From Rhodoblastus sphagnicola (GTDB taxonomy: Bacteria > Pseudomonadota > Alphaproteobacteria > Rhizobiales > Beijerinckiaceae), in contig NZ_NHSJ01000121.1 in the NCBI RefSeq assembly GCF_002937075.1, forward strand, positions 1-64,000: a stretch of DNA of 64,000 nt, given 5' to 3'. This document shows, one piece after another, positions 12,070 to 27,783 of this stretch; positions within the stretch are counted from its first letter, which is position 1, and each line of letters opens with the position of its first letter. The position numbers and the translations under genes were made by a program. The notes below the pieces were generated by a model, which made no database searches, was not told the origin of the DNA, and was given only the letters and a program-made list of their open reading frames with translations.

Positions 12070-13599
12070 ATGAATTTCCAACCCGCCGTCCCCAGCAAGA
12101 AACTTTTGCCCGAACGTCTTTTCGTGTTCGAACTCGCCAACAATCACATGGGCGATGTGGCGCATGGGCTGCGCGTCATCGACGAGATCGCCGGCGCGAC
12201 GCAGGGTTTTCCGTTCAGCTTCGCCTTCAAGTTGCAATATCGCGATCTCGACACCTTCATTCATCCTGATTTCGCCGATCGGATGGACATCAAATACATC
12301 AAGCGCTTTTCCGAGACGCGGCTCGACCGCGACCAGACCCGCCGTCTGGTGGCGCGCATCAAGTCGCATGGTTTCCTCACCATGTGCACGCCCTTCGATG
12401 AAACCAGCGTGGACCGCATCGTCGAGGACGGTTTCGATATTCTGAAGATCGCCTCCTGCTCCTTCACGGACTGGCCGCTGTTGGAGAAGATCGGCGCCAC
12501 GGACCTGCCGATCATCGGTTCGACCGCCGGTATCAGGCTGAACGATCTCGACAATGTCGTCGCCTTCATGCGCCACCGCGAAAAGGCATTTTCCCTGATG
12601 GCCTGCGTCGCGCAATATCCGACGCCCCGAGCCGACCTCCAGCTCAACCAGATCGACGTGCTGAAAGCCCGCTATGCCGATCTGCGCGTCGGCTATTCCA
12701 CCCACGAAGACCCGTCCGAAACGCTGCCGGTGGCCATGGCCATCGCCAAGGGCGCGAGCATTTTCGAGAAGCACGTCGGCGTTCCCACCGAAAAATACGC
12801 CTTGAACACCTATTCCGCCGATCCCGCGCAGGTGCGCGTCTGGCTTGAAACCGCGCGCCAAGCTTTTGTCATGGCCGGCGTCGAAGGCGAGCGCATCGAG
12901 CCGAGCGCGGGGGAACTGAAAGCGCTGGCTGGACTGCGCCGGGGCGTGTTCGTCAAGCGCGCCGTCAAGGCGGGCGAACGGCTGCGCGACGTGGATGTGT
13001 TCTTCGCCATTCCCACTGAAACCGCGTCGATCACCGCCAACGACTGGTCGAAATACAACCAGTTCCAGGCCACCCAGGACATTCCCGCCAAGGCGGCGGT
13101 CACGAGCGAAAACACCGAGCTTAGGCAAGTGCGCGCAAAAGTGCGCTCGATCGTGGATCGCGTCAAAGCCCTGCTCGACCAGAGCCGCGGCGTCGTGCCG
13201 GGCGAGGCCGAGCTGGAGATTTCACATCATTACGGCATCGAGCGCTTCGACGAGTTCGGCATCACCATGGTGACCGTGGTCAACCGCAATTATTGCAAGA
13301 AACTGATCGTGGTGCTGCCCGGCCAGAAACACCCCGAGCAATACCACGAGAAGAAGGAAGAGACGTTTCACGTGCTGCATGGCGTGTTGCAACTGGAACT
13401 GGACGGTGTGAAACGCGTCTGCGGTCCAGGCTCCGTGATCACCATCACGCCGGGCATGCGCCACGCTTTCCAGAGCGAGACCGGCGCGGTGTTCGAGGAG
13501 ATTTCCTCGACCCATTTCGTCAACGATTCCTTCTACACCGATCCCGCCATCGGCCAGAACGCCGAGCGGAAAACCCTTTTGCGGCACTGGATCGACTGA
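12070..13599 (+). CDS. NeuB-family nonulosonate synthase fused to SAF-like and cupin domains
   Basis: Protein of 509 aa. Residues 1-285 form a NeuB TIM barrel, the family that condenses phosphoenolpyruvate with a hexosamine-type aldose to give sialic, legionaminic or pseudaminic acids. Visible landmarks are FELANNHMGD, FLTMCTPFDE, ILKIASCSFTDWPLL, QYPTPRADLQLNQI and GYSTHEDPS. An SAF/antifreeze-like part follows at about 287-348. An extra cupin occupies about 385-505, with a metal-type pattern (HPEQYHEKKEETFHVLHG and ITPGMRHAF). The start at 12070 has ggaagga upstream. It heads an operon with a ThDP enzyme, an SDR-HAD fusion and a glycosyltransferase (gaps of 1-8 bases). No CMP-sugar synthetase is visible. 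The exact product is unknown. Confidence 0.85.
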   Translation: MNFQPAVPSKKLLPERLFVFELANNHMGDVAHGLRVIDEIAGATQGFPFSFAFKLQYRDLDTFIHPDFADRMDIKYIKRFSETRLDRDQTRRLVARIKSHGFLTMCTPFDETSVDRIVEDGFDILKIASCSFTDWPLLEKIGATDLPIIGSTAGIRLNDLDNVVAFMRHREKAFSLMACVAQYPTPRADLQLNQIDVLKARYADLRVGYSTHEDPSETLPVAMAIAKGASIFEKHVGVPTEKYALNTYSADPAQVRVWLETARQAFVMAGVEGERIEPSAGELKALAGLRRGVFVKRAVKAGERLRDVDVFFAIPTETASITANDWSKYNQFQATQDIPAKAAVTSENTELRQVRAKVRSIVDRVKALLDQSRGVVPGEAELEISHHYGIERFDEFGITMVTVVNRNYCKKLIVVLPGQKHPEQYHEKKEETFHVLHGVLQLELDGVKRVCGPGSVITITPGMRHAFQSETGAVFEEISSTHFVNDSFYTDPAIGQNAERKTLLRHWID

Positions 13600-13601
13600 C
13601 G

Positions 13602-15611
13602 ATGACCATTCAGAACATCAAGGCGGAAGCCGACGCCATCGGCCCGGTCTCCGTGCGCCTCGCCGACTATGTCGCCAGCTTTGTCGCGAGCCAGGGCGTG
13701 AAAACCGTGTTCCTGGTGCCCGGCGGCGGCGCCATGTTCCTGATCGACGCCTTCGGCCGGTCCACGGAACTCGATTACGTTCCAAACCATCACGAACAGG
13801 CCTCAAGCATAGCGGCGGAAGCCTATGCCAGAGTCAACGGTCATCTCGGTTGCGCCGTGGTGACGACGGGGCCGGGCGCCACCAACGCCATCACCGGCTG
13901 CGCCGGCGCGTGGATCGAATCCGTTCCGCTGCTGATCCTGTCGGGTCAGGTCAAGCGCGCCGACCTCATCGGCGCCAGCGGTGTGCGGCAGATGGGGCCG
14001 CAGGAGGTCGAGATCGTCAAAATGGTGGCGCCGATCACCAAATATGCGGTGACCGTGCTCGACCCCGAAGACATCCGCTTCCATCTGGAAAAGGCGGTTC
14101 ATCTCGCCACCACCGGCCGGCGCGGACCGGTCTGGCTCGACATTCCGCTCGACGTGCAGAATGCGTCCATCGACGTGTCCACCCTGCGCGGTTTTACGCC
14201 CGAACCGATCGCGCCGGCATGCGACCTGGAAACCGAGGCTGGCGCGGTGCTCGACGCCTTGCGAAAAGCCGAGCGGCCGCTGTTGCTCGCCGGCCATGGC
14301 GTGCGGCTGGCCGGCGCGGCGGAAATTTTTCGCGAGCTTTATGAAACGCTTGGCGTCCCCGTGGTCACCACTTGGAACGTGATGGACCTGATCCCGGCGA
14401 GCCACAGGCTGAGTGTCGGCAAGCCGGGAACCGTGGCTTTGCGCGCGCCAAACTTCGCCGTGCAGAATTGCGATCTGCTGCTGTCCATCGGCGCGCGGCT
14501 CGACAATGTCGTCACCGCCTACAATCCGAAAAAGTTCGCGCGTTCGGCGCAAAAGATCGTGGTCGATGTCGATCCCGCCGAGTTGAACAAGTTCCCGGAG
14601 GATTCCGGCATCAGCCGCAAGATCGAGGCGGACGCCAAGATTTTCGTCGAGACGCTGCTGCGGCTGGCGAAACAGGCGCCGGAGTCCCAAGCTCCCGGGT
14701 CTCAAGCTCCCGCGCCTCAAAAAGCCGCGCCGGAAAAGCCTTCGCCCATCTCAAGGCTGTCCGCCTTGTTCCGCCGGACGAAACCGGCTCCCGCGCCCGA
14801 ACCCGCATCCAAGCCTGACGTCTGGCTCGACCATTGCGCGCAATGGAAGCGCAAATATCCGCTCGACGCCACGCCCTTCCCGACCTCGGGCAAGATCGGC
14901 CATTTCCATCTCACCAAGGCGCTCTCGGACGGCCTGCCGGACAACGCGCTGATCGTCACGGGGTCGTCCGGCCTTGGCGTGGAGTTCTTTTACACCGGCT
15001 TCGCCAACAAGCCGGGTCAGCGGGTGTTCCTCACCTCCGGCCTCGGCGCGATGGGCTATGGCATGCCCGCGATGATCGGCGCCTATATGGCCTCCGACAG
15101 AAAGCCCTTCTTCGGCGTCGAGAGCGACGGTTCGCTGATGATGAATTTGCAGGAAATGCAGACCATAGCCAGCCAGAACCTGCCGTTGCGCATGTTCGTC
15201 ATCAACAATCGCGGCTATGCCTCGATCCGCGCGACCCAGCGCAATTATTTCGACGGCCGCTATGTCGGCACCGGCCCGGAAGCGCGGCTCGGACTGCCCG
15301 ACCTGCCGGCGCTGGCCAAAGTGTTCGGCTGGGAGGCTTTCGTCATCGATGACGCCGCCGATCTCGAAGCGGGCATCGCGCGCGCGGTGGCGCACGAGGG
15401 CGGGCCGCTCTTGATCGACGTGCGCGTGGTCGAGAACGAAGCGCTGTTTCCGAAATCGGCGGCCCTGTTCAATGAGGACGGAACCATCCTGTCCATGCCG
15501 CTTGAGGACATGTCGCCGCTGCTGCCGCGCGACGAATTCCGCGCCAACATGATCGCGCCGCTCGATCCAGCTTCGGAAAACGTGCCGGCGCATCTGCTGC
15601 CGAAGGCCTGA
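13602..15611 (+). CDS. Thiamine-diphosphate enzyme, acetolactate-synthase-like
   Basis: Protein of 669 aa with the three-domain ThDP fold. The N-terminal PYR domain has the cofactor-activating Glu in HHEQASSIAAEAYAR (Glu65) and TTGPGATNAITG. A central domain and a C-terminal PP domain follow; the PP domain has the metal/ThDP motif ESDGSLMMN at about residue 506. Between the central and PP domains is an unusual Pro/Ala/Ser-rich linker at about residues 357-406, not expected in acetolactate synthase. It starts 2 bases after the NeuB-cupin gene and ends 1 base before the SDR-HAD gene. In a sugar cluster such an enzyme could ligate a two-carbon unit from pyruvate to a keto sugar, as YerE does, or decarboxylate an intermediate. 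Branched-chain amino-acid synthesis seems unlikely from context. Confidence 0.85.
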   Translation: MTIQNIKAEADAIGPVSVRLADYVASFVASQGVKTVFLVPGGGAMFLIDAFGRSTELDYVPNHHEQASSIAAEAYARVNGHLGCAVVTTGPGATNAITGCAGAWIESVPLLILSGQVKRADLIGASGVRQMGPQEVEIVKMVAPITKYAVTVLDPEDIRFHLEKAVHLATTGRRGPVWLDIPLDVQNASIDVSTLRGFTPEPIAPACDLETEAGAVLDALRKAERPLLLAGHGVRLAGAAEIFRELYETLGVPVVTTWNVMDLIPASHRLSVGKPGTVALRAPNFAVQNCDLLLSIGARLDNVVTAYNPKKFARSAQKIVVDVDPAELNKFPEDSGISRKIEADAKIFVETLLRLAKQAPESQAPGSQAPAPQKAAPEKPSPISRLSALFRRTKPAPAPEPASKPDVWLDHCAQWKRKYPLDATPFPTSGKIGHFHLTKALSDGLPDNALIVTGSSGLGVEFFYTGFANKPGQRVFLTSGLGAMGYGMPAMIGAYMASDRKPFFGVESDGSLMMNLQEMQTIASQNLPLRMFVINNRGYASIRATQRNYFDGRYVGTGPEARLGLPDLPALAKVFGWEAFVIDDAADLEAGIARAVAHEGGPLLIDVRVVENEALFPKSAALFNEDGTILSMPLEDMSPLLPRDEFRANMIAPLDPASENVPAHLLPKA

Positions 15612-15612
15612 G

Positions 15613-17016
15613 ATGCGGACGCTGGACGGCTTTTCCGTCTCCGATCTCGACCAGGCGTGTGGCCGGGTTCAGCCGGCGCTGGCGGCGCTCGACGGCGCCT
15701 CGCTGTTCCTCACCGGCGGCACCGGCTTTTTCGGCCGCTGGTTGCTGGCCTTGCTGGTCCACGCGCGGGCGGAAAAACTTTTCCAATGCGACGTGACGGT
15801 CCTTTCGCGCGCGCCTGAAAAATTTCGCGCCGAGCATCCCGATTTCGCCGACCTGCCGTGGCTGCGGTTTTGCGAAGGCGATGTCGGCTGTTTCGAGTTT
15901 CCCAAGGGCCGCTTCACCCATGTCATCCATGCGGCGACGGACACCAGCGCCGAGGCCGACCGCAACCCGCGCCGTCTCGTCGGCTCTATCGTGGACGGGA
16001 CGCGGCGCGTGCTGGATTTCGCCGAAATGACCGGGGTCAAGCGGCTGCTTTATGTCAGCTCTGGCGCTGTCTATGGCGCGCAGCCCGGCGATCTCGAAAA
16101 AATCCCCGAAGATTACGCCGGCGCCTGCGATCCGCTCGATCCGCGCACGGCCTATGGCCAAGCCAAGCGACTGGCGGAGAATTCTTGCGCCGTCGCCGCG
16201 CGCGACGGTCTGCAAACCGTGATCGCCCGAGCCTTCGCCTTTGTCGGGCCGGGCCTGCCGCTCGACGGCCATTTCGCCATCGGCAATTTCATTGCGGATG
16301 CGCTGGCGGGCCGCGAGATCCTCGTCAAGGGCGACGGGACGCCGCTGCGCTCTTATCTCTATGCCGCCGATCTTGCCGCCTGGCTCATAAGACTCTTGGT
16401 CGAAGGCGAGAGCGGCGCGGCCTATAATGTCGGCTCGGACGCGGCCATTTCCCTCGGAGATCTCGCGCATCTGGTTGCCCGACGCCTTGGCGCTCCCGGC
16501 GTGAAGATGGCTCAGTCGCCGGGCGCCGGCGGCCTGCGGTCGCGCTATATCCCCGCGATCGACAAGGCGCGGCGCGACCTTGGCCTCGACGTCTGGACCG
16601 GTCTTGAAGAAGCGGTCGCCCGCACGGCGGCTTACGCGCGCGAGCAAGAGACGACGCGCCGACCCGCGCCGGTTCACCGCAACGAGCATGGCGGCGGCAA
16701 GCAACTGACTTTCGTGGTCGATGTCGATGGCGTGGTCGCCAGCCTGACTCCGAGCAACGACTACAACCTCTGCACGCCGCTGACGGGGACGATCGAGATC
16801 GTCAACCGCCTCCACGACCAGGGCCATCGCATCGTCATGTTCACCGCGCGCGGTTCAGCCACCGGCCTCGACTGGTTGCAGGCGACACGCGACCAATTCG
16901 CCCGATGGGGCCTGAAATATCATGAATTGCGCTTCGGCAAGCCCGCCGGCGACTATTACATCGACGACCGGCTGATTTCGCTCGGCGAAATGCGGGCCCT
17001 CAGCGAACGGACATAA
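15613..17016 (+). CDS. Fusion of NAD-dependent epimerase/dehydratase and HAD-like phosphatase
   Basis: A 467-aa two-domain protein. Residues 1 to about 345 are an extended SDR acting on nucleotide sugars: GGTGFFGRW dinucleotide motif, VSSGAVYGA, catalytic YGQAK, RAFAFVGPG and RSYLYAADLA. Residues about 365-467 form a small HAD phosphatase-like domain: motif I DVDGVVAS with the nucleophilic Asp, motif II in FTARGS, and DDRLIS as the acidic metal site. The HAD part resembles the stand-alone capsule-biosynthesis phosphatases. Fusion with an SDR suggests two steps on one sugar, possibly dephosphorylation of the NeuB product and reduction or epimerisation. It lies in the NeuB operon, 8 bases before the glycosyltransferase gene. 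Confidence 0.85.
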   Translation: MRTLDGFSVSDLDQACGRVQPALAALDGASLFLTGGTGFFGRWLLALLVHARAEKLFQCDVTVLSRAPEKFRAEHPDFADLPWLRFCEGDVGCFEFPKGRFTHVIHAATDTSAEADRNPRRLVGSIVDGTRRVLDFAEMTGVKRLLYVSSGAVYGAQPGDLEKIPEDYAGACDPLDPRTAYGQAKRLAENSCAVAARDGLQTVIARAFAFVGPGLPLDGHFAIGNFIADALAGREILVKGDGTPLRSYLYAADLAAWLIRLLVEGESGAAYNVGSDAAISLGDLAHLVARRLGAPGVKMAQSPGAGGLRSRYIPAIDKARRDLGLDVWTGLEEAVARTAAYAREQETTRRPAPVHRNEHGGGKQLTFVVDVDGVVASLTPSNDYNLCTPLTGTIEIVNRLHDQGHRIVMFTARGSATGLDWLQATRDQFARWGLKYHELRFGKPAGDYYIDDRLISLGEMRALSERT

Positions 17017-17023
17017 GCTCCCG

Positions 17024-17959
17024 ATGAAAACCATCAGCATCGTCACGCCCTGCTACAACGAGGAGGCCGGCATCGCCGAATGCCATGAGGCCTGTCGCAA
17101 GGTGATGGAGAGCGAACTCTCCAACTACGCCTATGAGCATATCTTCATCGACAATTGTTCGACCGACCGCACCGTGGCGATTCTCAAGGAGATCGCGGCG
17201 CGCGACAAGCGCGTGAAAATCATCGTCAACGCGCGCAATTTCGGGCCGCAGCGCTCGCCGCACCACGCGACCTTGCAGGCAGGCGGCGACGCGGTGACGA
17301 CCGTGCTGGCCGACTTGCAAACGCCCCCGTCGATCCTGCCGGCCATGGTCCGGCAATGGGAGGCGGGCTACAAGGCGGTGATCGCGGTGCGGCGCGGCGC
17401 GACGGAAGGGTTTTTCATCGGACTGGCGCGGAAAACCTTTTATGCCTTGATCAAGCGCCTCTCCAAGATCGAGCAGATTCCCAATTTCATGGGCTACGGC
17501 CTCTACGACCGCCAGTTCATGGATGTCGTGCGCACGCTCTACGAGCCGGAGCCCTATTTTCGCGGCCTCGTTTCCGAAATCGGGTTCGAGCGGGCCATCG
17601 TCGAATATGACCAGCCGGAGCGCAAGCACGGCAAGTCCCGCCACAGCCTGTTCGACCTGATCGATTTCGCCCTGATCGGCCTGACGACTTTTTCCAAGGC
17701 GCCGATGCGCCTGATGACCGTGATCGGCTTTGTCGTCGCCGGCTTGAGCCTGCTCAGCGCCTTCGTCTATCTCTGCGTGAAATTGCTGTTCTGGAGCCAG
17801 GTGCCGATCGGCGTCACCCCCATTCTGCTGGCGACTTTCTTCCTGGGCGCCGTGCAGCTTCTAGCGCTGGGCTTGCTCGGCGAATATGTCGGCCTGCTGC
17901 TGCAATATGCGCGCGGGTTTCCTCTGGTCGTCGAGAAGGAGCGGGTCAATTTCGATTGA
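17024..17959 (+). CDS. Family 2 glycosyltransferase with two membrane helices (DPM1/GtrB/ArnC type)
   Basis: Protein of 311 aa. The cytosolic GT-A domain opens with SIVTPCYNEEAGIAECHEAC and has the metal/nucleotide region DNCSTDRTVAIL and LADLQTPP. It is followed by two strong membrane helices at about residues 228-255 and 265-290, and by the family hallmark LLGEYVGLLL...ARGFPLV. Such enzymes load a sugar onto a polyprenyl phosphate at the inner membrane. As the last gene of the NeuB operon it probably handles the sugar made by the three preceding enzymes. It converges on the next glycosyltransferase with 8 bases between stops and no visible terminator. Confidence 0.88.
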   Translation: MKTISIVTPCYNEEAGIAECHEACRKVMESELSNYAYEHIFIDNCSTDRTVAILKEIAARDKRVKIIVNARNFGPQRSPHHATLQAGGDAVTTVLADLQTPPSILPAMVRQWEAGYKAVIAVRRGATEGFFIGLARKTFYALIKRLSKIEQIPNFMGYGLYDRQFMDVVRTLYEPEPYFRGLVSEIGFERAIVEYDQPERKHGKSRHSLFDLIDFALIGLTTFSKAPMRLMTVIGFVVAGLSLLSAFVYLCVKLLFWSQVPIGVTPILLATFFLGAVQLLALGLLGEYVGLLLQYARGFPLVVEKERVNFD

Positions 17960-17967
17960 GTCCCCGG

Positions 17968-18930
17968 TCAGGCGAGCAAGAACAGGCCGATATTCTTCAA
18001 GGACGAGTTGAACCAGAGTCCGTGCCGGACCAGCGCCAGCCTCCGTTCGAGCGGCCCGAGCTGCGGAAAACGTGCGAGCGCTTTCAACGCGGCCAATTCA
18101 TCCGCAGGCAATCGCGCGGCATGAATATCGGCGAAGGCGCCGGCCTGTCGTGACGCCTGACCGAGCACGTGCTGGACGCGCTGGCGCGCGCTTGTCGGCG
18201 CGGACACGAGGCGGCCGAGCGCGCCCGACAAGGACGACGTGAACGGATCCTTGGTGGCGTTGGCCCCATGCCGGAGGTAGCGCATGGTGATATCGGGCAA
18301 AAGAATGAGCTGGCCAAACGCGATCGCCACCAGAGCCATCCACCAGTCCTGATAGACCGCGCCCGGCGGCATGGGCAGCGCCTGCGCGAGCAAGGCGCGG
18401 TTGACCGCCATGGTCGAACCCAGCGCGGCCGATTCCATCGCCGTGCGGCGCGTGGACGAGCGGGCGGGCGGACCGCTTCGGGTCCAGCGCCAGTATGAGG
18501 CCGCGACCAGGCGCCCCTCGTGATCGACCACCTGTGCGTCCGTGCTGATGGCGATGGGCGTGTGTTCGCCGAATTTCGCTTCCGCCGCGCGCAAGGCGCC
18601 AAGCGTCAGGGCCACGCGGTTGGGCAACCAGCGGTCGTCGGGGTCTGCGGTGAGAATCCAGGGCGCGGTCGTGGCGGCGAGGACCTTGTTGTAATTGCCG
18701 ATAATGCCGAGATTGGGCGAGGGTCCCTCGCCATCGACGAGCAGCATACGCGGCCCCAGGCGGTCCCGCCATTTCCTCAGGACGTCGGCGGTTGCATCCG
18801 CCGAGCCGTCATCGCGCGCCACCAGACGCCACGCGCAATCCAATGTGGACAGATCTTCAATGAAATGATCGATCCATTGCGCCGCATTGTAGCAGGGAAA
18901 TACAATGTCTATTTGAGTATCTGAGTGCAA
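17968..18930 (-). CDS. Family 2 glycosyltransferase
   Basis: Soluble GT-A fold glycosyltransferase of 320 aa. It opens with IDIVFPCYNAAQWIDHFIEDL, has RDDGSADAT for nucleotide binding and the DxD-type ADPDDRW at about residue 95, then QDWWMA as the likely acceptor/catalytic acid region. The pattern resembles rhamnosyl- and other O-antigen transferases. No membrane helix is seen. Its start is 18 bases from a CtrA-type box shared with the divergent radical SAM gene. Donor and acceptor cannot be read from sequence. Confidence 0.85.
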   Translation of the reverse strand: MHSDTQIDIVFPCYNAAQWIDHFIEDLSTLDCAWRLVARDDGSADATADVLRKWRDRLGPRMLLVDGEGPSPNLGIIGNYNKVLAATTAPWILTADPDDRWLPNRVALTLGALRAAEAKFGEHTPIAISTDAQVVDHEGRLVAASYWRWTRSGPPARSSTRRTAMESAALGSTMAVNRALLAQALPMPPGAVYQDWWMALVAIAFGQLILLPDITMRYLRHGANATKDPFTSSLSGALGRLVSAPTSARQRVQHVLGQASRQAGAFADIHAARLPADELAALKALARFPQLGPLERRLALVRHGLWFNSSLKNIGLFLLA

Positions 18931-18962: not shown

Positions 18963-19016
18963 AGCCTGCCAGCTAACGTAGCATAGCCTGATTCGTGCTT
19001 TTTGAGGAACCGACGC

Positions 19017-20516
19017 ATGAAGTCGCCCGCCGACATGAAGGTCATCCAGATCGAGATCACGAACGCCTGCCCGTTGAAATGTTCGGGCTGCACGCGTCTG
19101 TGCGGGCATCATGAAGAACCCTTCTTCATGGATTTCGAGACCTTCAAGGCGGCCGTCGATTCCCTGAAGGGATTTGACGGCATCGTCGGCGTCATGGGCG
19201 GCGAGCCGACCATCCATCCCGAATTTCCGCGCTTCATGGACTATTATCGCGCCAACGTCGGCTACGACGATCATACGACCGGCTCCTACAAGCCGACCGG
19301 CGATTACATGCGCCACGTCCTCGCCAACACCTGGCACACCGATTACAGCAACAAGCGCGGTCTGTGGTCGATGATGCCGCCGAAATATTACGAGCATTTC
19401 GAACTCATCCAGGACACGTTCGCCTACCAGTCGCTGAACGATCATTCCAAGCCGAGCCTGCACCAGACCCAACTGGTGACCCGCAAGGAGCTGGGCATTC
19501 CCGACGAGGAATGGTTCAAGCTGCGCGATCGCTGCTGGGTGCAGAACCTGTGGAGCGCGTCGATCACGCCCAAGGGCGCTTTCTTCTGCGAGGTGGCGGC
19601 GGCCATGGACGCGACGCTGGGCGGCCCCGGCGGCTGGAAGATCGAGCCGGGCTGGTGGCAACGCAAGCCGGAAGATTTTGGGGACCAGCTTAACTGGTGC
19701 GAGATGTGCAGCGCCTGCCTGCCCATGCCGAGCCGTGACGCGCGCGACCAATGCGACGACGTTTCCCCCGTCTGGGCCGAGAAACTCGAAGGCATCAAGA
19801 GCCCCAAACTGCGCAAGGGGCTGGTCAATGTGTTCGACCCCCAGGTCTGGCAAAAGGACAAGCATTCGATCATCCAGACCCACATGCCCTATATGGACGA
19901 TCAGGAAACCCGGATGGGCAAGGTCCGCGACCGCATGACGCCGCACAAGATCACCGAAGTGCTTTGGCTGACCTGCGCCCTGAAGGACGACGCCGCGCGC
20001 GCGCTGATCGACGCGATGAAAGCGGCGGGCCGGCTCGCCGCCATCGCCTCCCGCGACGAAAACGCGGCGGCGCTCGCGGAACAGGCGGGGGTTCCTTTCG
20101 TCTCCGGCGCGCATGCGCTCAAGGATCTGATCGCCGCGACAAACGGCAAGGACTGGGCCTTGCTCTGCAAGGACGCGGCCATGCCCGTGGAGTTCCTGGA
20201 CTTCGCCAAAACCTGCGTGTTCAACCCCGGCGTCATCCATGGCGGCGGCCCAACCACGCTGGACTATCAGTTCTTCAACTTCCGCGCCCTGTCGCTGCGC
20301 AACGGCGGCGATCTCTTCAATCTCGCCAGCGCCTATCCGGCGCGCAAGGTCGTGACGCTGAAGTCTTGGAAGAAGAAGGACTACGTGCTTTCGGACGTCG
20401 GCATGTTCCTGCGCCGCCTGCTCAAGCGCTGGGTCTGGTTCAATCGCAAGATTCGCGGCAAGGAAGCGGCGCGCGGCTCCTTTGGCGCCTGGAAGGGAAA
20501 CAAGGTGTCGGTGTGA
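19017..20516 (+). CDS. Radical SAM protein of the surface-polysaccharide island, function unknown
   Basis: Protein of 499 aa. The N-terminus has a radical SAM cluster motif (IEITNACPLKCSGCTRLCG, CxxxCxxC) followed by VMGGEPTIHPEF. A second Cys group follows at about residues 175-245 (RCWVQNLWSASITPKGAFFC and WCEMCSACLPMP), consistent with an auxiliary SPASM/twitch-like Fe-S cluster. Residues about 320-440 form a distinct alpha/beta domain that I do not recognise, and the tail is basic. The start at 19017 has gagga 8 bases upstream. Its end overlaps the flippase gene (GTGA), so the two are made together. A radical modification of a lipid-linked sugar or its carrier is plausible; a peptide substrate is not excluded. 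Confidence 0.8.
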   Translation: MKSPADMKVIQIEITNACPLKCSGCTRLCGHHEEPFFMDFETFKAAVDSLKGFDGIVGVMGGEPTIHPEFPRFMDYYRANVGYDDHTTGSYKPTGDYMRHVLANTWHTDYSNKRGLWSMMPPKYYEHFELIQDTFAYQSLNDHSKPSLHQTQLVTRKELGIPDEEWFKLRDRCWVQNLWSASITPKGAFFCEVAAAMDATLGGPGGWKIEPGWWQRKPEDFGDQLNWCEMCSACLPMPSRDARDQCDDVSPVWAEKLEGIKSPKLRKGLVNVFDPQVWQKDKHSIIQTHMPYMDDQETRMGKVRDRMTPHKITEVLWLTCALKDDAARALIDAMKAAGRLAAIASRDENAAALAEQAGVPFVSGAHALKDLIAATNGKDWALLCKDAAMPVEFLDFAKTCVFNPGVIHGGGPTTLDYQFFNFRALSLRNGGDLFNLASAYPARKVVTLKSWKKKDYVLSDVGMFLRRLLKRWVWFNRKIRGKEAARGSFGAWKGNKVSV

Positions 20517-21859
20517 CGCCGGCGCGGGCGCCCTCTTCGCTCGCCGCGCCCGAGGAGAAACGCGGACGGCGCGCCGTCACTTCGTCCGTGGTGGGCGTCG
20601 GTCAGCGCCTGCTTCAGATCGCGAGCGTGCTGTTCATCATGCCGCTCGTCCTGCACATGCTCGGCCGGGACGGGTTTGGCGTCTGGTCCGCCGCCGTGTC
20701 GCTGTCGTGGATGGCCGTCACCGTGGATTTCGGCGTGGGGCAGGCCTTGCTGACCAGCGTCGCCCGCAATCGGGCGCGGGGCGACCTTGCGGAAATCCGG
20801 CGTGAAATCGGGGCGGCGGTGGCGCTGGCGTGCGCCCTTTGCGCCATCGGCGTCGTGCTCGCGCTCACGATCATCCCCGCAGTCGCCGCGCGGGAGACGG
20901 CGGACGCCTATCTGATCTCGGCGCTGTGCCTCGCGGCCAACATTCCCTTCAGCCTCTCCGGCAATATCTGGACCGGCTTGCAGCGTTTCAACATGGCGTT
21001 GATCTGGGAAGCGTTCCAGACGATCATCACGGTTTGCGGCCTGTTCGCGCTCACGCGCGAGAGCGCGGACGTGCGCTGGTATGTGGCCATCACGGCCGGC
21101 GGCCTCCTCGTCGCCAATGCCTGTAGCACCGTCCATCTCTTCGTCCGGCATCCCGAACTGCTTCCAAACTGGGGCGCCGGCGCGGCCGCGTGTTTCGTCC
21201 GCCTGCTGCGAAGCGGCGCGCCGTTCTTCCTGCTCGGCCTCGCGGCCATGCTGTCGATCAATCTCGACAGCGTGATCACTTTGTCGGCGCTCGGGTCGGA
21301 CGCGGCCTCGCGCATGGCCGTGGCGCAGCGGGCGTGCCTGACCGCCTATGGCCTGCTTTGGGTGGTGACGCAGCCGCTCTGGCCCGCCTTTACCGATGCG
21401 ACGACGCGCGGCGATCATTCCTGGGTTCGCCGCCACATTTTCACCGCCCTCGGCATCGTGGGTCTTTGCGCCATTTCCGGTTGCGCCGTTCTCGTCCTGT
21501 TTGGACAGCGCCTCGTTGCGATCTGGATGAACGGCGAACTAGAGATCGACCGGGCCATCCTGTTGGCAGCCTCCGCATGGATCATCGCGTTGAGCATGGG
21601 CCGCGTGGTCGATGTCCTGCTGAACGGGGTCGGCGCGGTCTGGTTTCAGGCCCGCATGGCTCTCGCGCTCGGCGTCGTCGCCTTCGCGCTGAAATTTGCC
21701 TTGGCTCCGGTCCTTGGCGTCGCCGGGATCGTCGGGGCGACCCCACTCGCCTATGCCCTGATTGTCGCGCCGGCCTATGTGGTCTGGCTGCGGCGCTGGC
21801 TGCGGCAGGGCGTCTCGACCGCGGCCGCCGCGCGAGACGAGGCGCTCGACACGGCGTGA
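20513..21859 (+). CDS. Wzx-like oligosaccharide flippase (MATE/MOP superfamily)
   Basis: Integral membrane protein of 448 aa with about 12 hydrophobic helices, typical of Wzx/RfbX transporters that move lipid-linked oligosaccharides across the inner membrane. Family-like features include the early VVGVGQRLLQIASVLFIMPLVLHMLGRDGFGVW and the repeated Gly/Ala-rich helices. The true start is the GTG at 20513, which overlaps the radical SAM stop as GTGA; the frame remains open far upstream, but that part is a shadow of the radical SAM gene. Four bases separate its stop from the convergent UDP-xylose synthase gene. Its presence argues for a Wzx/Wzy-type route, though no Wzy is firmly identified here. 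Confidence 0.85.
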   Translation: MTPARAPSSLAAPEEKRGRRAVTSSVVGVGQRLLQIASVLFIMPLVLHMLGRDGFGVWSAAVSLSWMAVTVDFGVGQALLTSVARNRARGDLAEIRREIGAAVALACALCAIGVVLALTIIPAVAARETADAYLISALCLAANIPFSLSGNIWTGLQRFNMALIWEAFQTIITVCGLFALTRESADVRWYVAITAGGLLVANACSTVHLFVRHPELLPNWGAGAAACFVRLLRSGAPFFLLGLAAMLSINLDSVITLSALGSDAASRMAVAQRACLTAYGLLWVVTQPLWPAFTDATTRGDHSWVRRHIFTALGIVGLCAISGCAVLVLFGQRLVAIWMNGELEIDRAILLAASAWIIALSMGRVVDVLLNGVGAVWFQARMALALGVVAFALKFALAPVLGVAGIVGATPLAYALIVAPAYVVWLRRWLRQGVSTAAAARDEALDTA

Positions 21860-21863
21860 AGTC

Positions 21864-22844
21864 TCAGCAGGCGCGGATGGCGCCGATCGCGCGGGAGGGT
21901 TCGTTGTTGCGCAGGTAATTCTCGAAATAGGCGATGGTCTTGCCAAGACCTTCCCGCAACTGAATCGTCGGGCGCCAGTCGAGGATCTCGTTGGCCTTGG
22001 CGATGTCGGGCTTGCGCTGCCGAGGGTCGTCCGAGGGCAAAGGCCGGAAGGTCACGCGCGATCGGGAACCCGTCAGTTCGATGACCTGCTCGGCCAGTTG
22101 CAGCATGGTGAATTCGTTGGGATTGCCGATGTTGATCGGCCCGACGGTTTCCGGCCCGGTCGCCATCATGCGGATCATCGCCTCGATGAGGTCGTCGACA
22201 TAGCAGAACGAGCGGGTCTGCGCGCCGTCGCCGAAAATCGTGATCTCCTCGCCCTTGAGCGCCTGCATGATGAAATTGGACACGACGCGGCCGTCATTGG
22301 GATGCATGCGCGGGCCGTAAGTGTTGAAGATGCGCACGATCTTGGCGCTCAACTTGTGCTGCCGGACATAGTCGATCACCAGGGTCTCGGCGCATCGCTT
22401 GCCTTCGTCGTAGCAGGAGCGCAATCCGATCGGATTGACGTTGCCCCAATATTCCTCGGGCTGGGGATGCACGCTCGGATCGCCATACACTTCCGAGGTC
22501 GAGGCCTGAAGGAATTTGACCTTCAGCCTTTTGGCGAGACCGAGCATGTTGATCGCGCCGATGACGCTGGTCTTGGTCGTCTGCACCGGATCGAACTGGT
22601 AATGGATCGGCGAGGCCGGGCAGGCGAGATTGTAGATCTCGTCCACTTCGACATAGAGCGGGAAGGTCACGTCGTGACGCAGCAACTCGAACGCCTTGTG
22701 GTCGAGCAGATGGGTCACATTGCGCCGTGTGCCCGTGAAGAAATTATCGACGCAGAGAACGTCGTGCCCGGCCTCCAGCAGCCGTTCGCACAAATGCGAC
22801 CCCAGAAAGCCTGCGCCGCCCGTCACGAGAATTCTCTTGTGCAT
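21864..22844 (-). CDS. UDP-glucuronate decarboxylase (UDP-xylose synthase)
   Basis: Extended SDR of 326 aa that oxidises and decarboxylates UDP-glucuronate to UDP-xylose. It carries the signature sequence of this family: [51 protein letters not shown], the catalytic pair in SCYDEGKR, and [21 protein letters not shown]. The ATG has aggaaag 7 bases upstream. It is the last gene of the leftward rfbF-rfbG-rfbH-membrane protein run, 43 bases after the membrane protein, and supplies a pentose donor for the surface polysaccharide. Confidence 0.95.
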
Positions 22845-22887: not shown

Positions 22888-24426
22888 TCAGCGGTCCTTG
22901 AGGACTGGATGATCGGGCCAGCAGCGACCGGCGCCCATTGTTTCGAACGATTCGTCGCGGGTGGGTTGCGGCAGCAACCAGCCCGGCGCGCCTCTGGTCG
23001 GCGCGATGTAATTGGTGGGGACGCCGCCAGGGGTCAGTTCATCGGTCGCCGTGATCAGATTGCAGGCGCTGATGTTGTAGCGCGGCAGCAGCAGGGCTTC
23101 CGAGATTTCGATCAGCGGGCCCCCCGCGCCGACAATGACCAGCGCGAGGCCGGTCATGCGCGCGAGACGTTGGGTGGGTTCGAGGGCGAGCAAGGTCGAA
23201 ATGAAGGTGAACGCCAACAGGAACAAGGGCGCGATCGAGCCGCGCATGACGAGATCGTTGCTGGGGCCGAATTTGTAAAGCGGCAGCAGCAGGAGAAACC
23301 CAACCGAAATGACCAGGAGCGGCTTCAACTCCGGTCGCACGCGGGGCCACAGCGCCGCGAGAAACAGCGCATGGGGAATTTCGACCAGAAGGAACAGAGA
23401 ATATGTGCTCCAGAACCCGGTCGCCCGCGCAACCGCGTCATGGGAGATGGAGCCGGCGTCGGCCACCAGATAGACGGCCACGGGCAGAAAACAGGCCGCC
23501 GCCGCGCCGCCGAGCCAGAACCGAAGCGATTTCGGCGCTTCCGCGCGGTCGCGCCAGACGAACCACACGAGGAAGGCGGGCGCCGCCAGCGGCGCGAGCG
23601 GCGACCAGAACAGCAAGGCCGCGAAGATCGCGCCCAAGGCGCCGAGATCGAGTTCGCGCCGCGCCACGGCCACCACCGCCAGCGCGAAGAACCAGCCGGG
23701 GAAGGCATGGTTGGGCACGTAAAAAATCTGGGTGACATGGGCCGAATACTGGAACAGGCGCGCCCACCATTCCGGTTCGCCGCGCATGGTCCAGACGCCG
23801 GTCTGAACGTAGTCGTGGATGATGGAGGAAAACCACGGCAGCAGATCGAGGCCGCTGAAGACAACCAGCAGCAACGCCATGGCGAGGCCGCCGCCGAGGA
23901 TCGCGGCAAGGTAGAGCACAATGGCGAGCAGGAGCGCGTTCTGCGCCAGCAGCACGACATGGGCCGCCATCAGGCCGAAAAAATGTCCGACGAGGCCGGG
24001 GATCATGTACATGCCGAGCGGCGCGCGCAAAAAGTAAGTTTCGTCGCCAAGCCGGTAATATACCGGCGCGACATGGCGCGTGACATCGGCGAGCACGGCG
24101 TCGCGCGTCAGCCAATCGGCGTTGGCCCAGAACAGATGCGTTTCGCCGCCAAGCAGGCACAGCGTGAGCGCGACGAGGCCGCAGGTTCCCAACAAGCGCG
24201 CGTCAATCGGCGCATCGAGCAGGACGCCGGAGGCGCGATGGGTCAGCAGCAGCGCGGCGACGCCACAGCAGCCGATGAGAACCGCGATCATCGCCGGCGC
24301 GGCTAGGCCGGTCGCCCAGATCGCATTGCCGGCGACGAAAACCAGCCCGGCGGCGTTGAAGACCGCCCGGTTGGTGACGACGACGGCCTCGGGCTTGGCT
24401 TGGGGCAAGGCGTCCGTCGCCGTCAT
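22888..24426 (-). CDS. Polytopic membrane protein of the polysaccharide island, possibly GT-C or polymerase
   Basis: Protein of 512 aa with about 11 hydrophobic helices (for example residues 23-60, 85-100, 150-190, 240-270 and 330-400) and a soluble C-terminus carrying a few Pro/Trp motifs. I do not recognise a named family. Size, topology and position suggest a glycosyltransferase of GT-C type or a Wzy-like polymerase. It begins 1 base after the rfbH stop and is therefore in the CDP-sugar operon. A long open frame on the opposite strand is a shadow. Confidence 0.75.
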   Translation of the reverse strand: MTATDALPQAKPEAVVVTNRAVFNAAGLVFVAGNAIWATGLAAPAMIAVLIGCCGVAALLLTHRASGVLLDAPIDARLLGTCGLVALTLCLLGGETHLFWANADWLTRDAVLADVTRHVAPVYYRLGDETYFLRAPLGMYMIPGLVGHFFGLMAAHVVLLAQNALLLAIVLYLAAILGGGLAMALLLVVFSGLDLLPWFSSIIHDYVQTGVWTMRGEPEWWARLFQYSAHVTQIFYVPNHAFPGWFFALAVVAVARRELDLGALGAIFAALLFWSPLAPLAAPAFLVWFVWRDRAEAPKSLRFWLGGAAAACFLPVAVYLVADAGSISHDAVARATGFWSTYSLFLLVEIPHALFLAALWPRVRPELKPLLVISVGFLLLLPLYKFGPSNDLVMRGSIAPLFLLAFTFISTLLALEPTQRLARMTGLALVIVGAGGPLIEISEALLLPRYNISACNLITATDELTPGGVPTNYIAPTRGAPGWLLPQPTRDESFETMGAGRCWPDHPVLKDR

Positions 24427-24427
24427 G

Positions 24428-25774
24428 TCAGGCGCTCTGGCGGGTTGCGGCGGGACGGCGCAAAGCTTCGCGCATGGCGTCGATCATGTGGTCGAGATGG
24501 GCGACCTCGAGTCCGGGATAGACACCGATCCAAAAGGTGCGGTCCACGACGATGTCGGCGTTGGCGAGCGCGCCGGCGATGCGGTATGCGCGATCCTTCA
24601 TGTAGGGCTGGCGCACGAGATTGCCGCCGAACAGAAGCCGCGTCCCGATCCTTTCCGCGTTGAGTTGCTGGACGAGCGCGTCGCGCGAAACCGGCGCGGT
24701 CTCGCGCAGCGTGAGTGGAAAGCCGAACCAGGACGGCTCCGTCCCAGGCGTCGCCTCGGGCAGGATCAACACATCTTCAAGGCCGCGCAGGCCGTGTTTC
24801 AGATGCTCGAAATTGCGACGGCGGGCGGCGATAAAATCTTCGAGGCGGTCGAGTTGCGCCAGTCCCACCGCCGCCTGCATGTCGGTGATCTTCAGGTTGA
24901 AGCCGAGATGCGAATAGACATATTTGTGGTCGTATCCCTGGGGCAAATCGCCGAGTTTCCAGCCATAGCGCTTGTTGCAGGTGGCGTCCTTGCCGGGCGC
25001 GCAATAGCAGTCGCGGCCCCAGTCGCGAAAACTCTCCATGATCTTGGCGAGTTGCGGATTGTCGGTGAAGACGGCTCCGCCCTCGCCCATGGTGATGTGA
25101 TGGGCCGGATAAAAACTCAGCGTGCCGATGTCGCCGAACGTCCCGACATGCCGGCCATCGACGGTGGCGCCGAGCGCGTCGCAGCAATCCTCGATCAGCC
25201 ACAGGCCATGCTTGTCGCAGAGCGCCTTGATCGCCTTGACGTTGAACGGATTGCCCAGCGTGTGCGCGACCATGATCGCTTTTGTCTTGGGACCGATGGC
25301 GGCCTCGAGCGCGGCGACATCGATGTTGTAAGTGGGGATGTCCACATCGACGAAAACCGGAATCGCGCCCCAAAAAATCGCCGGATTGACGGTGGTGGGA
25401 AAGCCGGTGGCGCAGGTGATGACCTCGTCGCCCGGCCTGATCTGGCGGTCTTTCAGGCGCGGCGAGGTCAGCGCCGAGAAAGCCACCAGATTGGCCGAGG
25501 AGCCGGAATTGACGGTCAGCGCATATTTCGCTCCGACGCGCGCGGCGAGTTTTTGCTCGAAGGCGTCGTTGAACCGTCCGGTGGTCAGCCAGAAATCCAG
25601 CGCCGCATCGACCAGAGTCTGCATTTCGCGCGCGCCATAGACCCGGCCGGAGACCGGGACGCTCGCGCCCGGCGCGAACGCAGGCTGGCGGTGCGCGAGG
25701 TCGTGGTAGCGCCCGACCAGATCGAGGATTTGCGCGCGCAGGGCTTCGGCTTCAGGCGATTCTTTCGGCTGCAT
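24428..25774 (-). CDS. rfbH: CDP-6-deoxy-L-threo-D-glycero-4-hexulose-3-dehydrase (RfbH/E1)
   Basis: PMP-dependent dehydrase (448 aa) that removes the 3-hydroxyl of CDP-4-keto-6-deoxyglucose, leading to CDP-3,6-dideoxyhexoses such as abequose, tyvelose, paratose or ascarylose. The aminotransferase fold is visible, with the family-defining His-for-Lys change in [16 protein letters not shown]: His replaces the PLP-binding Lys of ordinary aminotransferases. Iron-sulfur Cys residues are present ([18 protein letters not shown]). The start at 25774 has aggaa upstream and overlaps rfbG by 23 bases. The usual partner reductase (E3) is not in the window. Confidence 0.94.
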
Positions 25775-26882
25775 GCTGTTCCTGGGTCGCGCCCGACTCA
25801 TGCGCGGGAAAGGGAGAGGTCAACCGCACACGCTGACCGAGATAGGCGTCGATCTGGTCGAAGGTTTTTCCGCGCACGTCCGCGCCCGTTGCGTGGGCGC
25901 GATACCAGCGCGCCGTCCAGTCCACGGCCTCGTCGAAGCTCAGCAGCGGCCGCCAGTCGAGCTTCTCGCGCGCCTTGCTGGCGTCGAGGCGCAAAAGACC
26001 GGCCTCGTGCGGATGCGCGGCGCGATCGGGGGTCCAGCGCGCGCCGGGGCCCCAGGCGGCGATGAAGCGGGTGATGAGCGCCTCGACATCCCGCTCGCTA
26101 TCGGGACCGGGGCCGAAATTCCAGCCGTCGGCGAAAGCTTCACCGTGACGCGCGGCTTGTTCGGCCAGCATGAGATAGCCCGACAGCGGCTCCAGCACAT
26201 GCTGCCAGGGACGCACCGCCTTTGGCGCGCGCACGTCCAGCGGACGACCGGCGGCAAAAGCGCGCACGGCGTCGGGAAGGATGCGGTTGTCGGCGAAATC
26301 GCCGCCCCCGATCACATTGCCCGCGCGGGCCGTGGCGATGGTCGCCCCTTGGGCGAAGAACGAGGCGCGATAGGAGGCGGTGACGAGTTCGGCGCAGGCC
26401 TTGCTGTTGGAATAGGGATCGCGGCCGCCCAACGGATCGGTTTCGCGATAGCCCCGGAGCCATTCGCGATTGTCGTAGCATTTGTCGGTGGTGACGTTGA
26501 CCAGCGCTTGCAGATTGGGGCAGGCGCGCGCGGCTTCGAGCACGTTGACCGAGCCCATCACATTGGTCTGGAAGGTGGCGACCGGATCGGCATAGCCGGA
26601 TTTCACCAGCGGCTGGGCCGCCATGTGGATGACGATTTCCGGATCGGCGGCGATCATGACGCGGCGCAGCCTGTCGAGATCGTTGACGTCGCCGCGCACA
26701 TCTTCAAGCGTGTCGCCGACCGACAGGAGATCGAACAGGGACGGGTCGGTGGGGGGGGCGAGGGCGTAGCCGGTGGTCTCGGCGTTCAGCCGCGCCAGCA
26801 TCAGCGACAGCCACGCGCCCTTGAAGCCGGTGTGGCCGGTGACAAAGACGCGTTTCCTGCGCCAGAACCCTGAGTCGATCAC
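25752..26882 (-). CDS. rfbG: CDP-glucose 4,6-dehydratase
   Basis: Extended SDR (376 aa) converting CDP-glucose to CDP-4-keto-6-deoxyglucose. Motifs: [42 protein letters not shown], the catalytic Tyr and Lys in [11 protein letters not shown], and [17 protein letters not shown]. The start is taken as GTG at 26882 because it matches the canonical M-I-D-x-x-F-W N-terminus, has ggagg 5 bases upstream and overlaps the rfbF stop as GTGA; ATGs at 26885 and 26894 are alternatives. It acts between RfbF and RfbH. Confidence 0.95.
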
Positions 26883-27649
26883 CATACCCTCCATGGCGCC
26901 GCCCCGCTCGCCCATTGCTCTTCGAGAAAGGTCTTGTCGCGCAACGTGTCCATCGGCGCCCAGAAACCGGGATGGCTGTAGGCTTGAAGCTCGCCCATGG
27001 CGGTGAGCCTGCTCATCGGTTCGCGCTCCCAGACGGTGTCGTCGCCGTCGATCAGGTCGCAGACCTTGGGCGACAGCAGAAAGAAGCCGCCGCTGATCCA
27101 GCCGCCCTCGTCATCGGGCTTTTCGGTGAAGGCGGTGACGCGCGCGCCGTCGAGTGCGATGCTGCCGAAGCGCTTGGCCGGCCGCACGGCGGTGACGGTG
27201 GCGAGTTTGCCATGGGCGCGGTGGAAGGCGAGTTGGCGAGTGAGGTCGATGTCGCCCACGCCGTCGCCGTAAGTGAGGGCGAATGCGTCGTCATCTCCGA
27301 CAAAATCGCGAATGCGCTTGATGCGACCGCCGGTCATGGTCTTCTCGCCGGTGTCGATCAGCGTCACGCGCCAGGGTTCGGCATGTTCGCGATGCACTTC
27401 CATCCGGTTGGCGCGCATGTCGAAGGTGACGTCCGACATGTGCAGGAAGTAGTTCGAGAAGAATTCCTTGATGTAATAGCCTCTGTAACCGAGACAAATC
27501 ACGAATTCGTTGAAGCCATGCGCCGAATAGATTTTCATGATGTGCCAGAGAATCGGACGCCCGCCGATCTCGATCATGGGCTTGGGCCGGACCGCCGTTT
27601 CCTCGGCAAGCCGTGTGCCCATCCCGCCGGTCAGGATAACCACCTTCAT
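26879..27649 (-). CDS. rfbF: Glucose-1-phosphate cytidylyltransferase
   Basis: RfbF (256 aa) makes CDP-glucose from glucose-1-phosphate and CTP, opening the CDP-dideoxyhexose pathway. The nucleotidyltransferase motif MKVVILTGGMGTRLAEETAVRPKP is at the N-terminus, followed by GGRPILWHIMKIYS and LTYGDGVGDID. The start at 27649 is the first Met of this motif, with gagg upstream. It heads the leftward rfbFGH operon and diverges from a large membrane-protein gene across about 130 bases. Confidence 0.95.
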   Translation of the reverse strand: MKVVILTGGMGTRLAEETAVRPKPMIEIGGRPILWHIMKIYSAHGFNEFVICLGYRGYYIKEFFSNYFLHMSDVTFDMRANRMEVHREHAEPWRVTLIDTGEKTMTGGRIKRIRDFVGDDDAFALTYGDGVGDIDLTRQLAFHRAHGKLATVTAVRPAKRFGSIALDGARVTAFTEKPDDEGGWISGGFFLLSPKVCDLIDGDDTVWEREPMSRLTAMGELQAYSHPGFWAPMDTLRDKTFLEEQWASGAAPWRVW

Positions 27650-27783
27650 GAAATTGCCTCGACTCGCGGCGAACCCGCGTGGGAATCGGGCCATCGTTCC
27701 GGGGCCAGCATGGCTGACGCGGCGTAAAGGATACGTTAAGGCGGGCTGCGGCGGCCCTTGCGTAAGCGTTCCTTAAGGCGCGC

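Follow-up and report, generated by a model that had tools for sequence, protein, structure and literature searches.

A four-gene operon of Rhodoblastus sphagnicola, located at positions 12070-17959 of a 64,000-nt stretch of its genome (the window; the source genome is a draft assembly of 5.09 Mb, split into 141 contigs), is part of a larger gene set that includes rfbF, rfbG and rfbH, the genes for cytidine diphosphate (CDP)-4-keto-3,6-dideoxyglucose, which lie 6.5 kb downstream on the opposite strand. The set is probably best explained by a two-armed pathway to a higher sugar branched at C4. All four open reading frames (ORFs) are intact, on the + strand and separated by gaps of 2, 1 and 7 bases, in agreement with the tightly spaced operon described in an earlier note on this DNA. 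Gene 1 (12070-13599, 509 aa) codes for a NeuB-SAF-cupin protein (synthase residues 1-350, cupin 381-509); gene 2 (13602-15611, 669 aa counted from the chosen ATG of a frame that begins at 13293) for a JanthE/YerE-like carboligase dependent on thiamine diphosphate (ThDP), with the Pfam TPP N, M and C domains; gene 3 (15613-17016, 467 aa) for an extended short-chain dehydrogenase/reductase (SDR, residues 1-345) fused to a haloacid dehalogenase (HAD) phosphatase (353-467); and gene 4 (17024-17959, 311 aa, Pfam Glycos_transf_2) for a family 2 glycosyltransferase (GT2) of ArnC/PgfS/GtrB appearance. The decisive context, the CDP-glucose/RfbFGH pathway in the same locus, was missed by the earlier note.

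In the pathway that we infer, both in its individual reactions and their order and in what the donor is and how long it is, one arm would consist of RfbF, RfbG and RfbH turning glucose-1-phosphate into CDP-4-keto-3,6-dideoxyglucose. In the other arm, a ketose would be converted by the cupin isomerase domain into an aldose or its phosphate, condensation with phosphoenolpyruvate (PEP) by the NeuB domain would then yield a 3-deoxy-2-ulosonic acid, and the HAD domain would take off a phosphate. With the ulosonic acid as its 2-keto acid donor, the ThDP enzyme would release CO2 and attach what is left of the chain, an acyl group, at the C4 ketone of the CDP-sugar. The SDR would reduce the new branch ketone and the GT2 would load the finished residue onto polyprenyl phosphate for a surface polysaccharide. 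With a pentose or hexose as the aldose, the product sugar would have 13 or 14 carbons. It is more likely to be a neutral branched higher sugar than an acidic one, because the carboxylate would be lost as CO2; of the "acidic or branched" sugar put forward earlier, the branched half fits and the acidic half is less likely.

Conservation of the gene set and exclusion of CMP-sugar synthetase

Relatives of gene 1 were collected by scanning a three-sequence NeuB alignment against genome contigs and keeping the best 80 of 496 (L044-L123; L numbers designate loci and G numbers genomes compared); the counts describe these nearest 80 only, many of them metagenome-assembled genomes and some close kin. 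Gene presence was scored by tblastn, a ThDP gene being counted when it scored above an acetolactate synthase decoy. NeuB and cupin are present in 80/80 loci and the ThDP enzyme in 72/80 (hereafter ThDP-positive loci), under taxon titles that, with genera placed in the phyla to which we take them to belong, cover Alpha-, Beta-, Gamma- and Deltaproteobacteria, Elusimicrobia, Cyanobacteria (Microcystis), Nitrospirae, Acidobacteria, Chloroflexi, Bacteroidetes, Lentisphaerae, Verrucomicrobia, Firmicutes, Thermotogae and candidate phyla. In 48 of the 72 the ThDP gene comes immediately after NeuB-cupin, in 13 it follows with one gene between, in 7 it comes immediately before NeuB-cupin and in 4 it lies farther away, which makes them immediate neighbours in 55/72, or 68/72 if one intervening gene is allowed. 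Among named relatives of the operon the closest, found in Rhodoblastus acidophilus DSM 137 (L044), has all four genes in the same order with 79-91% identity per domain (88% for NeuB-cupin). The conservation that the earlier note had proposed to check thus extends widely for the NeuB-cupin and ThDP pair, whereas the full four-gene set with the HAD fusion was seen only in the window and L044; in L046-L048 the NeuB-ThDP-SDR-GT2 order is kept and the HAD is absent, with one opposite-strand gene preceding the GT2 in L047 and L048.

Many of the same loci carry rfb genes: RfbF in 44 of the ThDP-positive loci, RfbG in 39, RfbH in 45, any of them in 51 and all three in 36, RfbH being directly upstream of NeuB-cupin (up to 300 bases, same strand) in 34. 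Among the 52 of these 72 loci with more than 6.5 kb of upstream DNA, RfbH is found in 38 and any rfb gene in 44. For the 21 ThDP-positive loci whose fetched DNA held no rfb gene at threshold, the whole genomes were searched for RfbH (NF011936); 14 of the genomes were positive, and RfbH is therefore present in at least 59/72 cases by locus and genome search together; L081, L085, L088, L090, L091 and L097, which have RfbF/RfbG and no RfbH at threshold, were left out of that search. No RfbH above cut-off was found in the other 7 of the 21 genomes (L073, L077, L079, L084, L092, L103 and L108), two of which hold pieces at contig ends (RfbG in L073, RfbH in L108). The base rate of RfbH in the class of the window is 13/230 genomes, own included, and these 13 contain all three genomes known for NeuB plus ThDP (own, G167 and G194); the contrast is descriptive, the base rate being taken from one class and the 72 from many phyla. 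In the window, RfbF, RfbG and RfbH each exceed their NCBIfam equivalog cut-offs, and a histidine in place of the pyridoxal phosphate (PLP) lysine, a hallmark of RfbH, is present in 47/47 RfbH ORFs examined, window included. The earlier statement that no aminotransferase of the known routes lies nearby has to be qualified accordingly: a DegT-family PLP enzyme is present, but it is this dehydrase.

A HAD of one of three unrelated types is found in 43/72 ThDP-positive loci (Gph-like in 30, a second type in 12, that of the window in 1), an SDR in 36, a GT2 in 25 and a C-methyltransferase in 26. A HAD-motif scan was positive in 37/72 and in 2/20 controls, adding only L105 and L111 to the sequence search. 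The controls, 20 canonical NeuB loci hand-picked by match rank and size of contig, have none of the three HAD types, no SDR and no RfbH at threshold, RfbF plus RfbG once (L251) and a ThDP gene once (L247, YerE-like). Extension of this last locus (L262) brings an RfbF-G-H-SDR-ThDP cluster into view, in which some 6 kb separate the ThDP gene, and some 9 kb RfbH, from the canonical NeuB; L264, from the same genus, has a similar arrangement.

A single-sequence NeuA search detects just 5/20 controls, and an iterated profile was used instead for cytidine monophosphate (CMP)-sugar synthetase. With this profile the synthetase is found in 17/20 canonical NeuB loci, in none of the 72 ThDP-positive loci (fetched DNA) and nowhere in the window, so its absence nearby, remarked on earlier, is confirmed. 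It is present in five of the eight NeuB-cupin loci lacking ThDP (L114, L115, L120, L121 and L122), the other three (L068, L089 and L113) being short contigs that carry rfb genes. In L114 the synthetase (CTP_transf_3) and a HAD domain share one ORF, and equally long ORFs with matches to synthetase and HAD are found in L115, L120 and L121; L040, from an alphaproteobacterium, has NeuB-cupin, CMP-sugar synthetase and HAD and no ThDP gene in the fetched DNA. This distribution suggests two possible fates for the same acid, CMP activation or decarboxylative coupling by the ThDP enzyme. Among 80 NeuB loci on viral contigs (best 80 of 118), 47 have a ThDP hit and 14 a NeuA hit, with no locus having both, ThDP being scored without decoy and NeuA by the low-sensitivity single-sequence search.

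Two other products were considered and dropped: an acidic nonulosonate, as there is no CMP synthetase, and a phosphonate, as gene 2 differs in size and family from the enzyme of that route.

Enzyme families of the operon

Gene 1 is a NeuB-superfamily protein, predicted to be a PEP-dependent 2-keto-3-deoxy acid synthase, joined to a D-lyxose-isomerase-like cupin. Pfam gives NeuB at 124 bits, Cupin_2 at 40 and Lyx_isomer (PF07385) at 25.6 (cut-off 20.8), this last match covering only profile positions 56-110 of 222. By sequence search the nearest structure is 3g8r (E 1e-115), and the cupin aligns with the D-lyxose isomerase 2y0o across both halves (E 3e-10). An AlphaFold2 model built with 54 sequences has a mean predicted local distance difference test (pLDDT) score of 92.9 but a predicted template modelling (pTM) score of 0.77, indicating that the domains are well predicted singly and their relative placement less so; Foldseek on this model returned 3g8r (E 8e-45, 53% identity) and 2y0o (E 1e-10), with 3g8r and 1xuu matching over 335-342 columns. 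His212 and His235, presumably the two metal-binding histidines of NeuB (as placed from the Neisseria meningitidis enzyme), are invariant in 54/54 aligned sequences. The 3g8r protein, a putative NeuB-like protein from Chromobacterium violaceum, shares the NeuB-SAF fold, although its crystallised chain of 350 residues has no cupin and no assigned function, unlike the two-domain fusion of gene 1. Gene 1 falls far under the NCBIfam equivalogs for N-acetylneuraminate synthase (TIGR03569, 122 bits for a cut-off of 400) and pseudaminate synthase (TIGR03586, 103 for 340), and by that test is neither. The earlier view of an unusual sugar operon outside the standard nonulosonate routes is upheld. The cupin domain is a predicted ketol-isomerase, although it may have a regulatory or binding role instead. 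In a plasmid search no place covers 80% of the NeuB-cupin query, the first match listed having 26% identity over 64%.

The best solved relative of gene 2 is 8rph (E 1e-114), which we take to be JanthE, in keeping with the CDG motif seen in the alignment; the best acetolactate synthase (6lpi) follows at E 3e-74 and 5ahk, which we assume to be a YerE, at E 2e-73. Gene 2 is 30-34% identical to the YerE-type enzymes compared, with bit scores of 255-287 for five of them and of 229 for the genome's own acetolactate synthase. In a tree, these five fall outside the clade of the NeuB-linked ThDP enzymes (support 0.63). A glutamate at what we take to be the catalytic position is conserved in 73/73 aligned sequences, acetolactate synthase included. 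The ThDP-binding motif of gene 2 is SDG and not the canonical GDG, and its first residue is S in 37 and G in 28 of 65 aligned NeuB-linked sequences (these come from 75 loci, of which 6 had no usable ORF and 4 were too short). JanthE and gene 2 thus both have the first residue of GDG replaced, by Cys in JanthE and by Ser in gene 2, the SDG of the NeuB-linked enzymes being a natural counterpart of the JanthE CDG. Gene 2 is for sure JanthE-like and, judged by its sequence, YerE-like in the wider sense of a review (PMC12247030). The earlier note knew of no standard nonulosonate pathway with a ThDP enzyme; the JanthE/YerE-like, ketone-accepting kind to which this one is assigned would explain its presence. 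Two further ThDP enzymes, 40-42% identical to gene 2, occur in L234 and L235 with no NeuB of the gene 1 family and no rfb genes in the fetched DNA, which suggests another use of this subfamily. With the ThDP query, the 25 plasmid records listed of 1630 are 29-36% identical, the annotated ones being named acetolactate synthase, and close JanthE relatives (E up to 1e-140) were found in none of 398 genomes of the family of G584.

The domain searches proposed earlier called NeuB, cupin, TPP, Epimerase (124 bits for the SDR of gene 3) and GT2, but not the HAD domain, for which there is no Pfam call at cut-off. This domain was recognised through the capsule biosynthesis protein 9iqw (E 8e-12), scores 24.6 bits against the NCBIfam EcbF-BcbF capsule phosphatase (far under the cut-off of 162) and is 54-64% identical to HAD domains located near NeuB-cupin and CMP-sugar synthetase in L040, L114, L115, L120 and L121. 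The proposed functions are branch-ketone reductase for the SDR and ulosonate-phosphate phosphatase for the HAD. The GT2 of gene 4 matches NCBIfam PgfS (176 bits) and ArnC-type PRK10714 (122 bits), both under cut-off, and has relatives 41-44% identical in the YerE-type clusters L236-L238 and L241; it would transfer the residue to polyprenyl phosphate.

Known systems and competing explanations

Several branched-sugar enzymes provide precedents. In the passages of the review that deal with them (PMC12247030), the RfbH product is the substrate of both YerE and ErwE: YerE takes acetaldehyde from pyruvate and couples it to CDP-3,6-dideoxy-4-keto-D-glucose, and ErwE does not use pyruvate and prefers longer functionalised acids, such as 4-hydroxy-2-oxo acids. 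ErwE (erwiniose), MMAR_2332 (caryophyllose) and MygE (gastriose) have long 2-keto acid donors there, as proposed here, and those passages make no mention of a NeuB-type donor source. JanthE is described, in the relevant part of PMC12188165, as accepting ketones and long 2-keto acids, its physiological substrates being stated to be unidentified. Caryophyllose is portrayed as a C12 sugar whose C4 bears a hydroxylated chain of six carbons (excerpts of PMC12247030, PMC9912281 and PMC7821131), and in its chemical synthesis, as outlined in PMC9912281 and PMC7821131, an acid chloride, obtained via a digitoxose-configured intermediate, is coupled to a 4-keto sugar, with later reduction of the ketone. 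The yersiniose A pathway of YerE shares with the window locus the RfbFGH acceptor arm, an SDR, a GT2 and a ThDP enzyme that belongs to the decarboxylase superfamily, but uses pyruvate and therefore needs no NeuB, isomerase or phosphatase. The chain of caryophyllose presumably has its deoxy position next to the former ketone, as would be expected, by analogy, of a decarboxylated 3-deoxy-2-ulosonic acid. The proposed donor arm also has the three reaction types of the pathway to 3-deoxy-D-manno-octulosonic acid (Kdo), where they are carried out by the isomerase KdsD, the PEP synthase KdsA and the HAD phosphatase KdsC, although isomerase and synthase are of other families in the window and no CMP transfer would follow. 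No publication was recognised as joining NeuB with YerE-like enzymes in literature searches that were partly swamped by unrelated words, and an earlier description of the combination may exist.

It seems unlikely that two separate sugars are made for the same polysaccharide, an ordinary pyruvate-using YerE giving a yersiniose-like two-carbon branch and NeuB-cupin independently supplying a ulosonic residue. Such halves do occur apart: the YerE-type clusters L236-L238 have RfbFGH, an SDR and a GT2 and no NeuB of the gene 1 family, NeuB-cupin is found without ThDP and with CMP-sugar synthetase in L040, L114, L115 and L120-L122, and a canonical NeuB lies near an RfbFGH-ThDP cluster (L262) or near RfbH alone (L263). 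However, a ulosonic residue would be expected to need CMP activation, and the 72 ThDP-positive loci have no synthetase in the fetched DNA; moreover, NeuB-cupin and ThDP adjoin each other in most of them (55/72, or 68/72 with one gene between), and the NeuB-linked ThDP clade is separate from the five YerE-type enzymes. It is very improbable that the ThDP enzyme only decarboxylates the ulosonic acid to a 2-deoxy aldose or acid used elsewhere, with RfbFGH leading to a plain 3,6-dideoxyhexose: ThDP decarboxylases catalyse such reactions, and in L270 RfbFGH stand with an SDR and the fetched DNA shows no carboligase, but the closest characterised relatives of gene 2 are carboligases with ketone acceptors and rfbH stands directly upstream of NeuB in 34/72 loci. 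Chance neighbourhood within a polysaccharide locus, in keeping with the mosaic nature of such loci and the 6.5 kb between the two groups in the window, is hardly credible, as it is contradicted by the counts, the same adjacency recurring under many phylum-level labels and in phage contigs.

The coupling of the two arms into one branched sugar also has points that weigh against it. The operon and the rfb group of the window are on opposite strands, 6.5 kb apart. By single-sequence score gene 2 is only modestly nearer to the YerE-type enzymes, at 255-287 bits, the figure for acetolactate synthase being 229; 5ahk scores no better against it than an acetolactate synthase structure does, and the clade of NeuB-linked enzymes has a support of only 0.63. 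The 7/21 genomes in which no RfbH was found would allow for another acceptor. An SDR is present in only 36/72 ThDP-positive loci and none of the three HAD types in 29/72, the close relatives L045-L048 included, so that dephosphorylation may be optional. G187 (L263) has a canonical NeuB 3 kb from RfbH and no ThDP gene in the fetched DNA, and L042 and L104 (Butyrivibrio) have transketolase and heptose-type genes, so the acceptor or donor may vary.

If the two-armed pathway is true, it would supply the origin of the long 2-keto acid donor, a lacking half of long-branched sugar biosynthesis, join the fields of NeuB (sialic acid) and YerE (branched sugars) and give a candidate substrate for JanthE-like enzymes. 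New surface sugars would then be expected in cultured bacteria that have the genes, among them Rhodoblastus acidophilus (L044), Pseudomonas taeanensis (L057), Methylophaga aminisulfidivorans (L094) and Butyrivibrio species (L101, L104 and L105). More speculatively, and with less than even confidence, there could be a widespread class of sugars of about 13-14 carbons, in which a ulosonic acid of the sialic-acid type, minus CO2, is fused to C4 of a CDP-dideoxyhexose, present on polysaccharides and perhaps flagellins in many phyla; phages, too, would encode such sugars and use them in glycosylation of their own.

Variant loci and neighbouring genes

The surroundings of RfbH vary among the 13 alphaproteobacterial genomes that have it. 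A YerE-like ThDP gene is found in the source genome, G167, G194 (some 12 kb away from RfbH), G039, G190, G073 and G137, and a split transketolase in G078, G117 and G045 (by Pfam in G045, by eye in the other two); G187, G213 and G059, the last a short contig, show neither of them. In G167, RfbF, RfbG, RfbH, NeuB, ThDP and SDR stand in one locus, and G039 and G1010 (G167's genus) have the order RfbF-RfbG-RfbH-HpcH/HpaI-like protein-HAD-motif protein-ThDP-SDR. The HpcH/HpaI label comes from one Pfam match (29.2 bits, cut-off 25), with no PDB match and, in NCBIfam, a single very weak hit to a C-C lyase, and the HAD label from a sequence motif with no library match; the HpcH-like protein is not found in the other four genomes of G167's genus. 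If the label is right, a pyruvate aldolase and a PEP synthase would replace each other, both as sources of 3-deoxy-2-keto acids.

Split transketolases also accompany RfbF-G-H, an SDR and a GT2 in the alphaproteobacterial loci L267, L269 and L272 (Pfam in L272, by eye in the others) and are possible ketone-accepting transketolases; the review gives the 13 sequences found by Krug et al. as all from Streptomycetes (PMC12247030). The NeuB/ThDP loci L042:1255-8064 and L104:341-6008 have split transketolase-like genes together with an HldE-like PfkB-cytidylyltransferase fusion and a SIS-domain protein (Pfam in L042, by eye in L104), and their acceptor or donor may be derived from a heptose. Genes that by eye resemble, and that we take to be, flgI-flgL lie directly upstream of rfbF-G-H-NeuB-ThDP in L094 (Methylophaga aminisulfidivorans) and L107 (an uncultured gammaproteobacterium), hinting at flagellin glycosylation. 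A radical S-adenosylmethionine (SAM) family and a C-methyltransferase family, identified by clustering and Pfam, recur beside NeuB-ThDP in 22 loci each (for example L052:16763-17878 and L053:12881-14017).

Named phage records gave two weak matches only, none with the module. Three phage contigs from IMG/VR carry parts of it, each within one island: L133:858-8426 has RfbG-RfbH-RfbF, NeuB-cupin and ThDP beside minor head and tape measure proteins; L138:5768-11479 has ThDP in two ORFs, an RfbF-like protein, RfbH and NeuB-cupin, with a major head protein; and L185:5527-11074 has an RfbH-like protein, a weak RfbG relative, ThDP and a NeuB without cupin, with UvsX.

In the window, the operon opens a surface-polysaccharide-like region that extends to about 29.7 kb. 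It is followed by a GT2 (17968-18930, -), a radical SAM-like protein (19002-20516; Pfam Radical_SAM at 28.1 bits, just under the cut-off of 29.5), a membrane protein that is flippase-like by appearance only (ending at 21859) and an extended SDR (21864-22844, -). The rfb group, all on the - strand, comprises RfbH, a CDP-4-keto-6-deoxyglucose-3-dehydrase (24428-25801; NF011936 728 bits, cut-off 423), RfbG, a CDP-glucose 4,6-dehydratase (25752-26915; TIGR02622 466 bits, cut-off 278), and RfbF, a glucose-1-phosphate cytidylyltransferase (26879-27694; TIGR02623 435 bits, cut-off 300), whose true start is probably near residue 16. A membrane-protein-like ORF comes after rfbH (22888-24426, -), and a relative of it adjoins rfbH in L044, L047 and L048.

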